Part shown: positions 3,336 to 31,890 of the stretch, one piece after another
Layout of the letters: every line of letters begins with the position of its first letter
How positions within the stretch are numbered: the first letter of the stretch is position 1
DNA from: Cellvibrionales bacterium
Lineage (GTDB): Bacteria; Pseudomonadota; Gammaproteobacteria; Pseudomonadales; JAHEIH01
Direction of reading: 5' to 3'
NCBI GenBank assembly: GCA_024639455.1
Contig: JAHEIH010000011.1
Location: 1 to 64,000, forward strand
Length of the DNA: 64,000 nt
Position numbers and translations under genes: made by a program
Notes under the pieces: model-generated
The model's database searches: none
Seen by the model: the letters and a program-made list of their open reading frames with translations, nothing else
Told to the model about the DNA's origin: nothing

Positions 3336-3393
3336 CAATTCTATCTAATAAACGCTTGTGGGACGTCAACGCCAAGCGATGGCGTTGTCAGCA
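3336..3393 (+). repeat. Intergenic palindromic repeat, copy 1
   Basis: The block ATTCTATCTAATAAACGC then TGTGGGACGTCAACGC and GCGATGGCGTT recurs with few changes at 4943-5003. AACGCCA and TGGCGTT form a small hairpin. Both copies lie beside toxin-antitoxin modules, and the GTGGGA start links it to the REP-like family elsewhere in the window. Confidence 0.6.
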
Positions 3394-4081: not shown

Positions 4082-4168
4082 AGCCAGTGTTGTGGCGCAC
4101 GCTGCGCGTGGCAACCCACAGGTTCGTCGCCGTTTGCACGCGACCACTTCCCGCATGGCGACATCCTC
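4082..4168 (+). repeat. REP-like repeat, diverged composite copy
   Basis: The stretch contains GCACGCTGCGCGTGGCAACC, a CCCACAG block and then GTCGCCGTTTGCACGC. The same order recurs at 4999-5063. GCACGC and GCGTGG-type arms can pair, and the GTTTGCACGC part equals hairpin C of the intact REP-like elements at 16422, 30437 and 31056. Confidence 0.55.
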
Positions 4169-4914: not shown

Positions 4915-5063
4915 ATCGCCGTTTGCACACAAACGCTTCCCACATTCTATCTACTAAATCCCTGTGGGACGTCAACGCGAGGCGATGGCGTTAGTAATGT
5001 TTCGCACGCAGCGCGTGGCAACCCACAGTTCATAGCCGTTTACACGCAACCTCTTCCTACACC
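4915..5063 (+). repeat. REP-like repeat cluster, three adjoining partial units
   Basis: In order: a right-half unit (CGCCGTTTGCACACAAACGC then TTCCCACA), a copy of the 3336 repeat (CTGTGGGACGTCAACGC and GCGATGGCGTT), and a copy of the 4082 unit (GCACGCAGCGCGTGGCAACC, CCCACAG, GCCGTTTACACGCAACC). The last unit runs into the 3' end of the DUF1501 gene. The arrangement suggests a longer ancestral element that later broke into parts. Confidence 0.55.
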
Positions 5064-9092: not shown

Positions 9093-9400
9093 TGAGTATG
9101 CATTGTCCTGCTCATCCAGGTGAAATACTAAAAGACTTGCTGTTAGATCCATTAGGGTTAACGGTCACTTGCGTCGCCGATCATTTGGCGGTGAGCCGAA
9201 AGACATTGTCTAAAATTATTAATGGTCGTGGTCCAATCACAGCGGAAATGGCCGTCAGGTTAGAAGGGGTGTTTTCACAGCCGTCGGCGGAGCACTGGCT
9301 AAAATTACAAGGCGCTTATGACCTTTGGCAGATGCGAAAGGTGGCTGAAGCGCTTGCTGTTATGCCATTGGGTAGAAACTCTATGGGAGGCATGTCGTAA
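9092..9400 (+). CDS. higA: HigA-type XRE antitoxin
   Basis: This 102-residue helix-turn-helix protein has the HigA wording HPGEILKDLLLDPLGLTV, then HLAVSRKTLSKIINGRGPIT and a dimer helix WLKLQGAYDLWQMRK. It overlaps the higB stop codon by one base (TAATG). Intact HigA with a broken toxin leaves an orphan repressor that could still bind the palindrome at 8789-8807. Its last codons and TAA stop lie inside a REP-like hairpin (9383-9412), so the natural C-terminus may have been altered by that insertion (terminal residues GGMS). Confidence 0.9.
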   Translation: MSMHCPAHPGEILKDLLLDPLGLTVTCVADHLAVSRKTLSKIINGRGPITAEMAVRLEGVFSQPSAEHWLKLQGAYDLWQMRKVAEALAVMPLGRNSMGGMS

Positions 9401-9412
9401 GACATGGCGACA
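9383..9412 (+). repeat. REP-like element, left half, overlapping the higA stop
   Basis: ATGGGAGG followed by CATGTCGTAAGACATG and GCGACA matches the left arm and hairpin A of the intact REP-like elements. The higA TAA stop is in the loop of this hairpin. Hairpins B and C are missing. Confidence 0.75.
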
Positions 9413-16354: not shown

Positions 16355-16397
16355 CTGTGGGAGGCATGTCGAAGACATGGCGATTGTCGCCGTTTGC
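16355..16397 (+). repeat. REP-like element, truncated on the right
   Basis: CTGTGGGAGG, hairpin A CATGTCGAAGACATG, hairpin B GCGATTGTCGC and the left arm of hairpin C (CGTTTGC) are present; the right arm of C and the closing arm are lost. It lies in tandem with the fuller copy that starts 25 bp further on. Confidence 0.8.
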
Positions 16398-16421
16398 AAT
16401 CCAGCGCCACCTTCTTACCCG

Positions 16422-16484
16422 CTGTGGGAGGCATGTCGAAGACATGGCGATTGTCGCCGTTTGCACGCAAACGACTCCTACAAG
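16422..16484 (+). repeat. REP-like cloverleaf element, near-complete
   Basis: In order: CTGTGGGAGG, hairpin A CATGTCGAAGACATG, hairpin B GCGATTGTCGC, hairpin C CGTTTGCACGCAAACG and a decayed closing arm ACTCCTACAAG. The closing arm contains the TAG stop (16478-16480) of the minus-strand PLP-enzyme gene, so the repeat overlaps the end of that gene. Confidence 0.85.
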
Positions 16485-20767: not shown

Positions 20768-20840
20768 GCCTCCTACACAATCGATTATCCGATGTAGGAG
20801 GTTTCTCAAAGAGATGGCGATACATTTAAGCGCTATCGCC
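20768..20840 (+). repeat. REP-like element, diverged copy
   Basis: TGTAGGAGG at 20793 is followed by TCTCAAAGAGA and ATGGCGA, then GCTATCGCC. An inverted CCTCCTACA lies just upstream (20769-20777) and pairs with it. Hairpin A here is the CTC/GAG variant. Confidence 0.65.
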
Positions 20841-20859: not shown

Positions 20860-20893
20860 TTGTGGGAGGCATCTCAAAGAGATGGCGACTTCA
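20860..20893 (+). repeat. REP-like element, left half, variant hairpin A
   Basis: TTGTGGGAGG is followed by CATCTCAAAGAGATG and GCGA. Compared with CATGTC/GACATG in other copies, one base pair of the stem is changed on both sides (G-C to C-G), so pairing is kept. Confidence 0.75.
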
Positions 20894-30273: not shown

Positions 30274-30320
30274 GGCTGACAAAATCCTTAGAAGCGCAGG
30301 CGCGTTTAACCAAAGCGCGC

Positions 30321-30348
30321 ATCATAGCACAACTTGGCCGGCTGTCAG
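30321..30348 (-). promoter_or_regulatory. Likely sigma-70 promoter of trpGDC
   Basis: On the minus strand CTGACA (30343-30348) and TATGAT (30321-30326) are separated by 16 bp, 50-70 bp upstream of the trpG ATG. No leader peptide with tandem tryptophan codons was seen. Confidence 0.55.
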
Positions 30349-30368
30349 GAGTAATGGAACTATGATTG

Positions 30369-30420
30369 ATGTGGGAGAAATGTCGAATTGTCGCAGTTTG
30401 CAAGCAAACGCCTCCTACAT
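30369..30420 (+). repeat. REP-like element with collapsed hairpin A
   Basis: ATGTGGGAG and CTCCTACAT form the closing stem, and hairpin C (GTTTGCAAGCAAAC) is intact. The hairpin A and B region has shrunk to AAATGTCGAATTGTCGCA. Confidence 0.8.
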
Positions 30421-30436
30421 TATTACGGTTACGCAC

Positions 30437-30498
30437 CTGTGGGAGGCATGTCGGAGACATGGCGAACTGTCGCCGTTTCGTTGAAACGCCTCCCACGG
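30437..30498 (+). repeat. REP-like cloverleaf element, complete
   Basis: The closing stem is CTGTGGGAGG with CCTCCCACGG. Hairpin A is CATGTCGGAGACATG, hairpin B GCGAACTGTCGC and hairpin C CGTTTCGTTGAAACG. Hairpin C differs from other copies in both strands of the stem yet still pairs. It lies about 80 bp upstream of the RAYT gene. Confidence 0.9.
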
Positions 30499-30579
30499 TA
30501 GGCCAAAATCGCCTGCTACACCTCAGGCCAGCGGTCTAAATATCCTCCTTGATACACACTTTAAAGAAGGAGGAAGATT

Positions 30580-31029
30580 ATGAAAACCTACGGCTATTCT
30601 GCCCTTCGCAAAGGTAGAGTTTCACTACTCAATCACATATACCATATCAGTTTTTTTACTCAACAAAGGCGCCCATTTTTCCATGATCTATTTATTGCAC
30701 GATACTTGATCAACGCCATGCAAAGACAATCAAAATACTACCAAACAATATGCTTTGTCGTCATGCCTGATCATGTACATTGGCTATTTCAGCTGACGAC
30801 TACTGAGGTCACCATCAGCGAGATCATTCGCAGAACAAAAACATCTACAAGTAAATACTTCAAAAAGAATTATTCGGGTAGGTTGTGGCAAGAAGGTTTT
30901 TATGACCGAGCGTTAAGAAAAGAGGACGATATCGTCAAAATAGCTAGATATATAATTGCAAACCCAGTTCGTGCAAAGTTAGTTTCGAAAGTTGGTATGA
31001 ACAGTCACTGGGATGCCATCTTTTTTTGA
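30580..31029 (+). CDS. REP-associated tyrosine transposase (RAYT)
   Basis: This 149-residue single-strand HUH-type nuclease is related to IS200/IS605 TnpA. The HUH motif is VVMPDHVHWLFQL (H65, H67) and the likely catalytic tyrosine is Y124 in ARYIIANPVRAKLV. The RAYT family typically mobilises or maintains REP repeats rather than itself forming an insertion sequence. A strong GGAGG precedes the ATG. It sits between complete REP-like elements at 30437 and 31056, both in the same orientation. The gene is noticeably more AT-rich than its neighbours. Confidence 0.92.
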   Translation: MKTYGYSALRKGRVSLLNHIYHISFFTQQRRPFFHDLFIARYLINAMQRQSKYYQTICFVVMPDHVHWLFQLTTTEVTISEIIRRTKTSTSKYFKKNYSGRLWQEGFYDRALRKEDDIVKIARYIIANPVRAKLVSKVGMNSHWDAIFF

Positions 31030-31055
31030 TAGGCGAAGTGTCGCTGATCCACCGC

Positions 31056-31140
31056 CTGTGGGAGGCATGTCGTAGACATGGCGAACTGTCGCCGTTTGCA
31101 AGCAAACGCCTCCCACAGTGGGGCGCAAACGCCTCCTGCA
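31056..31140 (+). repeat. REP-like cloverleaf element, perfect copy, plus a half unit
   Basis: At 31056-31118 the stem CTGTGGGAGG/CCTCCCACAG closes three hairpins: CATGTCGTAGACATG, GCGAACTGTCGC and CGTTTGCAAGCAAACG. Every junction base is paired. A right-half unit (GCAAACGCCTCCTGCA) follows to 31140. It lies 26 bp after the RAYT stop. Confidence 0.92.
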
Positions 31141-31146
31141 TTGGGG

Positions 31147-31890
31147 CTAGACTCTAAATGGATACCCCTTGCGATCGAGGCGGCGCAGAATACCGGGCCA
31201 GGCGATATCTCCCCCCAGCGCTTTGGTGGCTTGTTCGGCCATCTGCTGTGCGCCCGCCAGAATGGGTTCGGGGACTTTGTTGAGCGCGGCGCCGCCGGAT
31301 TGTGCCAACAGTTGAATTTCACAGGCGCGCTGTAAGAAATACATTTGCACAAAGGCGTCAGAGACAGTTTCACCCACGGTTAACAGGCCGTGATTGCGTA
31401 GGATGAAGGCCTTGTTAGTACCTAAATCATCAACTAGGCGGGGCTTTTCTTCGTCACGCAGGGCAACGCCTTCGTAGTCGTGATAGCTTAGGCCAATAAA
31501 CGGCAGCAGTGATTGCTGTGAAATAGGCAGTAGGCCGTCGCTTTGACAAGATACGGCGACCCCGGCGTTGGTATGCAGGTGTAACACGCATTTAGCATCG
31601 TCGCGCGCCTCGTGGATGGCACTGTGAATGGTAAAGCCCGCAGGGTTGATGTCGTAGGGCGAATCGTCTAGTTTATTGCCGTCTAGGTCGATTTTTACCA
31701 GGCTCGAGGCGGTGATTTCGTCGAACATCATGCCGTACGGGTTGATAAGGAAATGCTCTGTGCCTGGAACTTTGGCAGTAATGTGGGTAAATACCAGGTC
31801 GTCCCAGCCGTAATCGGCAACGATGTTATAGCACGCGGCAAGGTCAACGCGAACCTGCCATTCCTCAGCGCTGAAATCTTCTTTAGCCAT
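31147..31890 (-). CDS. Class II aldolase/adducin-family protein
   Basis: The 247-residue protein has the L-fuculose-phosphate-aldolase fold. Metal-binding histidine blocks are CVLHLHTNAGVAVSCQSDG and AFILRNHGLLTVGETVSDA, and the N-terminal part has YGWDDLVFTHITAKVPGTEH. Such proteins may be aldolases, decarboxylases or non-catalytic. The start at 31890 gives MAKEDFSAEEWQVRVDLAAC after GGAGAAA. It stands alone, with a REP cluster at its 3' side. The substrate is not predicted. Confidence 0.85.
   Translation of the reverse strand: MAKEDFSAEEWQVRVDLAACYNIVADYGWDDLVFTHITAKVPGTEHFLINPYGMMFDEITASSLVKIDLDGNKLDDSPYDINPAGFTIHSAIHEARDDAKCVLHLHTNAGVAVSCQSDGLLPISQQSLLPFIGLSYHDYEGVALRDEEKPRLVDDLGTNKAFILRNHGLLTVGETVSDAFVQMYFLQRACEIQLLAQSGGAALNKVPEPILAGAQQMAEQATKALGGDIAWPGILRRLDRKGYPFRV

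Follow-up and report, generated by a model that had tools for sequence, protein, structure and literature searches.

A REP doublet beside a RAYT gene in a Cellvibrionales bacterium, predicted to fold into a cloverleaf as single-stranded DNA, belongs to a multicopy REP family

The 63-nt element at 31056-31118 of the window (the whole 64,000-nucleotide stretch of Cellvibrionales contig analysed) is very probably a REPIN, consisting of two inverted REPs of a family of about 59 copies that, of the genomes searched, only this one was seen to contain, with a likely cognate RAYT (REP-associated tyrosine transposase) gene lying between two such dimers in a REPtron. As part of the same reading, the cloverleaf shape of the element very probably forms when two inverted REPs with different arms, a short spacer and matching ends are joined.

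The sequence-only reading had proposed that the element folds into a perfect cloverleaf with no unpaired junction base, and the 63 letters located at window 31056-31118 matched its description. This fold was recovered as the DNA minimum, a closed stem and three hairpins with 0 unpaired junction bases and 11, 5, 5 and 5 base pairs per helix. The folding energy as ssDNA was -21.7 kcal/mol compared to -8.4 kcal/mol (sd 2.1) for dinucleotide shuffles (z = -6.36), with 0 of 200 shuffles folding as well. In the 59-nt core, the pairing register of the sequence-only reading is a branch-migrated neighbour (-18.4 vs -18.9 kcal/mol), and in fixed-structure scoring this copy was more stable as the cloverleaf (-18.4 kcal/mol) than as two separate REP hairpins (-9.1 kcal/mol). 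With RNA parameters the minimum (-35.9 kcal/mol; z = -6.6) was an elongated fold and not a cloverleaf, so that the thermodynamic check returned the proposed shape for DNA and a different one for RNA, and the term cloverleaf is valid under DNA parameters only. The cloverleaf therefore holds for this copy as a predicted DNA fold, and the element probably branches when single-stranded.

The element, recognized from folding and BLAST downstream of the RAYT gene, is composed of REP-a and an inverted REP-b, head-to-head (HH), and thus has the two inverted REPs and spacer of a REPIN or HH dimer. REP-a (31058-31084, + strand; 27 nt; GTGG-GA-GG-CATGTC.GTA.GACATG-GC-GA; model R1, 43.0 bits) is followed by the 4-nt spacer ACTG (31085-31088), which is the loop of the middle hairpin, and by REP-b (31089-31116, - strand; 28 nt; GTGG-GA-GG-CGTTTG.CTTG.CAAACG-GC-GA; model R1, 37.2 bits). 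The aligned unit reads GTRG-GA-x-y-[6-bp arm, 3-4 nt loop, arm]-y'-x'-GA. BLAST within the window returned similar elements at 30437-30496, 16422-16482, 16355-16411 and, in shortened form, 30369-30419, and the model located REPs in these. Upstream of the RAYT gene, an HH dimer with arms CATGTC and CGTTTC (30437-30496) comprises REP-a at 30439-30465 (+) and REP-b at 30470-30496 (-); a decayed HH dimer with a shortened a unit (30369-30419) retains a model-detected REP-b at 30391-30418 (-), separated by 20 nt from the REP-a of the next dimer. The stretch 16355-16482 contains two HH dimers, of which the first has a degenerate b unit (REPs at 16357-16383 +, 16424-16450 + and 16454-16481 -), and two REPs 41 nt apart were found by the model at 20794-20820 and 20862-20888 (both +). 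A single REP with the arm CATGTC (9383-9410, +), for which the model detected no partner, keeps the GGCGA end and retains the same inner parts of both ends, and a single REP-b with an unpaired A/C x pair lies at 4916-4943 (-). Judged from these sequences, the repeat unit is the single REP and not the 63-mer. At the end of the element there are also two 23-bp direct repeats that are 87% alike (window 31102-31147), and several 23-bp direct repeats of a shortened REP-b end occur in tandem on contig C22 (about 199.39-199.48k).

The RAYT gene adjacent to the element, which had been named from the letters alone, was confirmed as an intact gene with an open frame of 149 aa (30580-31029, + strand). 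Its product carries intact PDHVH and ARYIIANP motifs and an HWDA tail in an alignment with the RAYTs of relatives that was judged by eye (one row, L126, was ignored for its wrong reading frame); we take PDHVH to be the HUH motif and ARYIIANP to carry the catalytic tyrosine. The protein matched NF047646 with 119.2 bits (cutoff 80) and Pfam Y1_Tnp (PF01797), its sole PDB sequence match at E ≤ 0.01 was 4er8, a TnpArep (E = 2.5e-4), and the model match together with the HUH-Y1 motifs places it in the RAYT family. The dimers on either side of it sit between a likely trpG gene, the RAYT gene and an aldolase-like gene, the two outer genes being named presumptively, and mechanically called ORFs overlap these dimers. 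A second RAYT-like protein, 52% identical, is encoded on contig C10 (5585-6019), where repeats of another family (GTGGGTTGCAACGC.. and GTGGGACGTCAACGC..) lie on both sides of it; look-alikes of this second family (≤2 mismatches) occur in the window at 3358-3372, 4106-4119, 4964-4978 and 5013-5026. With dimer 30437-30496 and the decayed dimer 30369-30419 upstream and dimer 31056-31118 downstream, the RAYT gene has REPs on both sides, which is the REPtron layout described in the parts compared of PMC8266576, PMC2817692 and PMC6006769.

A covariance model of one unit detected at least 59 copies at E ≤ 1, and at least 57 at E ≤ 0.01, in the 2.88-Mb genome, with 150 of 739 first-look candidates scored. 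Twelve model matches lie on this 64-kb contig, which holds five of the 23 clusters compared to 2.2% of the bases; the binomial values for this clustering treat copies as independent. The identity of the element as REP-like, proposed from the sequence, is supported by its two REP units and by the 59 model matches of the unit family, and the copies show both the 5' GT(A/G)G head followed by a palindrome, the head by which REPs are defined in the available text of PMC3686654, and the presence of many copies per genome. Both GTGG and GTAG heads occur. In 36 relatives the REP model gave 0 matches at E ≤ 0.01 (at most 150 candidates scored per genome), and a RAYT protein match at E ≤ 0.001 was obtained in 18 of the 36. 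In the same-genus genome (G001), 38 residues of a RAYT end are encoded at the edge of a contig, and the short contig of its trpG-like match (2160 bases fetched) was without REP ends. For a copy with the arm CCTTTGC (C25:45590), no second copy within 3 mismatches was found. Two single REPs (C12:18886 and C22:226795) share the arm CTAGGTC/GACCTAG without a G.G mismatch and lie near a common flank, 'gaagaacaaggg'; they are perhaps a subfamily with a decayed partner. An identical tail-to-tail REP pair also occurs twice on contig C13 (48745 and 54962), 6.2 kb apart and within an identical stretch of several hundred bases, which suggests a local duplication.

Changes in the REP arms were compensated within the single unit. 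The first REP scan required stem pairing and gave 16 hits in the window compared to 4 in the window read backwards; 12 of its 58 hits were removed by eye before the first alignment (8 looked unrelated and 4 came from the 23-bp tandem on C22). The second alignment (A2; 44 sequences) includes 7 sites picked by eye from the 43 sites of an ends-only pattern and was largely selected for pairing, so that its counts lean towards pairing, and the ends-only pattern, in which the arms are unconstrained, provides the unbiased check. This pattern matched 43 sites compared to 25 in the backwards control. At least 5 of 6 arm pairs were Watson-Crick in 32 of the 43; among unique sites this held for 29 of 40, compared to a mean of 5.9 and a maximum of 12 for re-dealt arms. 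Fewer than 4 arm pairs were present in 9 of the 43 sites, below what the 25 control matches suggest for unrelated sites. The paired sites carry 13 distinct 5' arms. All 8 stem pairs change on both sides in A2, with a covariation score of 0.579 compared to 0.161 when shuffled and at most 0.113 when slid, and there was no excess of further pair types over shuffles (182 of 500 reach the count). The y pair was unpaired in 37 of 44 rows, mostly as a G.G mismatch, with C-G in 3, T-A in 3 and T-G in 1. On this comparative sequence evidence the REP arms are true helices, their stem held by compensatory change. The earlier claim that the arms pair is therefore supported, pairing being retained across 13 arm sequences and each of the 8 stem pairs changing on both sides. 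The outcome that had been named as fatal to the cloverleaf reading, an outer palindrome conserved alone with arms varying unpaired, is reversed: the arms vary with their pairing, while Watson-Crick pairs are lost in the outer stem and middle hairpin of 8 of 16 dimers.

Sixteen HH dimers with both units detected, with spacers of 3-12 nt, were available for comparison of partners (three with a degenerate unit, at window 16355 and 30369 and at C23:190, were left out). Sorted into classes by a second arm base of A or G, a definition made after inspection of the data, the two arms are one CAT-class and one CGT-class in 16 of 16 HH dimers. Tail-to-tail neighbours no more than 20 nt apart follow this in 13 of 13 cases, namely the six junctions of the array, the pair 30391/30439 and six more, two of which are C13 near-copies (second unit missed by the model). 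With the array counted once, C13 once and 30391/30439 omitted, 15 of 15 pairs were unlike, which has a probability of 2e-4 if equal classes pair at random and the pairs are taken as independent. Three tail-to-tail pairs 66-114 nt apart and two head-to-tail pairs 40-41 nt apart fall outside the neighbour counts; the head-to-tail pair 16357/16424 has two CAT-class arms. The array, a BIME on contig C9 (290884-291422), consists of seven REP dimers in tandem with 19-nt gaps; its b-arms switch among GTCAC, GTCTC and GTCA types and one a-arm has gone from ATGTC/GACAT to ATTTC/GAAAT, with pairing kept in nearly all. The unlike arms are most simply explained by descent from one a-b founder. A functional rule, by which self-pairing arms are free to change and the arms of close partners must differ, would give short hairpins in place of one 27-bp hairpin and so escape hairpin-cutting nucleases or offer the RAYT two separate feet, but we consider such a rule unlikely.

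Pairing between partners, in the closing stem and middle hairpin, showed no sign of being maintained. The DNA minimum was the closed three-hairpin form in 7 of the 16 HH dimers, and with fixed-structure scoring the cloverleaf was better in 7 and two REP hairpins in 9; with RNA parameters 8 were cloverleaf-like, three of them common to the 7 DNA ones. Eight of the 16 dimers (7 in the C9 tandem array and 1 on C29) contain a partner with x = A and x' = T, and, with 7 of the 16 dimers belonging to one tandem array, this x-pair evidence may represent one or two evolutionary events. In these dimers the pair is kept inside the REP, and the closing stem receives A.C and the middle hairpin a T.G wobble. 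Within REPs the x pair is thereby kept in 32 of 32 cells, whereas between REPs the closing stem and the middle hairpin each have a Watson-Crick pair at this position in 8 of 16 dimers. Watson-Crick cells amounted to 216 of 224 within REPs (x and arm, y omitted), 102 of 128 in the closing stem and 54 of 64 in the middle hairpin, and the between-REP total of 156 compares to a mean of 156.1 after partner shuffling, with 63% of shuffles reaching 156. Across the 16 dimers, compensation between partners was found neither in the outer stem nor in the middle hairpin. When a-type and b-type units were joined in silico with three native spacers, 288 of 546 joins gave a cloverleaf, 232 of 336 if x was G/C in both units and 56 of 210 if x was A/T in the a unit, and REPs joined to themselves gave 0 of 27. 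The cloverleaf thus follows from two inverted REPs with common ends and unlike arms; in these comparisons it looks like a by-product of paired REPs, and selection for this fold is unsupported.

The suggestion that the four-way fold is a functional or recognized unit accordingly found no support, only 7 of 16 complete HH dimers folding so as DNA and the outer stem and middle hairpin losing Watson-Crick pairing in 8 of 16 with no partner-specific matching. If the cloverleaf itself were the conserved substrate, with the RAYT or another protein recognizing a four-way branched single strand, one could point to the DNA minimum of this copy and 6 others of the 16, to the advantage of about 9 kcal/mol over two hairpins in this copy, and to close partners always being unlike-armed, so that a single long hairpin cannot form (0 of 27 homodimers joined in silico gave a cloverleaf). 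Near the RAYTs of other genomes, 11 of 72 detected HH dimers, at 6 of 26 loci, were also cloverleaf-like as DNA, 10 of the 11 with unlike arms (the label for same arms is crude, and 59 of 86 loci had no HH dimer in the scan), so that the shape is not peculiar to this genome. However, the cloverleaf is not the native minimum in 9 of 16 dimers, the x changes are compensated within the REP and not between REPs, unrelated REPs joined in silico form it as often (288 of 546), native partners show no specific matching, and known TnpAREP proteins cleave single-REP oligonucleotides in the portion of PMC8266576 compared, which makes recognition of the branched form very unlikely.

Also very unlikely is an intergenic RNA structure that acts as an mRNA stabilizer, attenuator or terminator. 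The RNA folding of the element is strong (z = -6.6), and according to the background section of PMC3686654 both E. coli and S. maltophilia have REPs that influence transcription and the stability of mRNA, but the RNA minimum of this copy is not a cloverleaf and only three of the eight RNA cloverleaf-like dimers belong to the DNA set. Within 30300-31200 there was no Rfam match at E ≤ 1 and no tRNA was found, and a consensus scan found no terminator-like site inside the element; a side effect of the element on transcripts may occur. A chance inverted repeat without a family, for which the only background is the 25 control matches of the ends-only pattern, is refuted by the 0 of 200 shuffles, the 59 model matches and arm pairing far above that of re-dealt arms.

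As a REPIN of a REP family with an adjoining RAYT, the element has a described counterpart for each main feature. REPINs were described in Pseudomonas fluorescens as inverted REP doublets predicted to form hairpins (PMC3116915, in part), and the present dimers resemble them in having inverted REPs with a spacer, a possibly extragenic position, many copies, an adjoining RAYT and predicted folding as ssDNA or mRNA. Unlike the GI doublet consensus given there, which is one long predicted hairpin, the doublets here have unlike arms and a 3-12 nt spacer and can therefore branch into three hairpins. The GTAG-tagged REPs in the sections of PMC3733652 compared share with this family a GTAG-type head, two unpaired bases, HH and TT dimers, heterodimers and spacers with complementary ends, as well as stems of mostly 6-9 bp with alternative complementary residues and an unpaired conserved tail as in GTAG-1/2. 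The GA after GTRG and the terminal GA correspond to the two bases after the head and the unpaired tail of the GTAG-1 type, although the tail is 3 bp there and GA or CGA here, depending on how the x pair is counted; the arm sequences also differ from those families, as does the G.G mismatch often present one base away from the foot of the stem. The same sections state that heterodimer preference has 'no obvious explanation'.

The REPtrons of Marinomonas sp. MWYL1 and E. coli (PMC8266576, in excerpt) likewise have tnpAREP flanked by REP/iREP pairs, with REP copies concentrated near the tnpAREP gene in Marinomonas, and in the excerpts of PMC2817692 three marine gammaproteobacteria show an accumulation of REPs around rayt genes. 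The present system differs from the former in stem, loop and tail. Cleavage in PMC8266576 was of single-REP oligonucleotides and used the REP strand, not its inverse; a complement swap of the upper stem or loop of the E. coli REP was tolerated, and in the S. maltophilia REP mismatches close to mid-stem impaired cleavage. E. coli TnpAREP tolerates no change of GTAG there, whereas this family has both GTGG and GTAG heads. The BIMEs of E. coli and Stenotrophomonas, as far as covered by the text of PMC2817692 and PMC6006769 compared, also contain inverted REP pairs, with changes in REPs that preserve the palindrome, and those of E. coli have alternating REP types; here the seven-dimer array on contig C9 is away from the RAYT, and the dimer at 31056-31118 stands outside any array. 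The word 'cloverleaf' has 0 occurrences in PMC3733652, PMC8266576 and PMC6006769, and no REPIN drawn with three hairpins was encountered in those parts of the open-licence REP/RAYT literature that were compared, which is not a claim that the shape is unpublished.

By analogy with the RAYT/TnpAREP literature, each REP would fold as a hairpin when single-stranded, and the RAYT would bind the GTRG foot and hairpin and cleave nearby, thereby moving or amplifying dimers or arrays. Most likely the RAYT recognizes each REP hairpin with its GTRG foot on the single strand and would spread dimers and arrays in this way; the cloverleaf may well form for this copy. A claim of a special four-way DNA structure is thus replaced by a well-resolved REP family with a likely RAYT. 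With few copies (59) and many compensated arms (13), the needs of the hairpin, namely pairing, the GTRG head and the GA tail, can be separated from the seemingly incidental outer stem and middle hairpin, and the preference for heterodimers is strict in this REP family.
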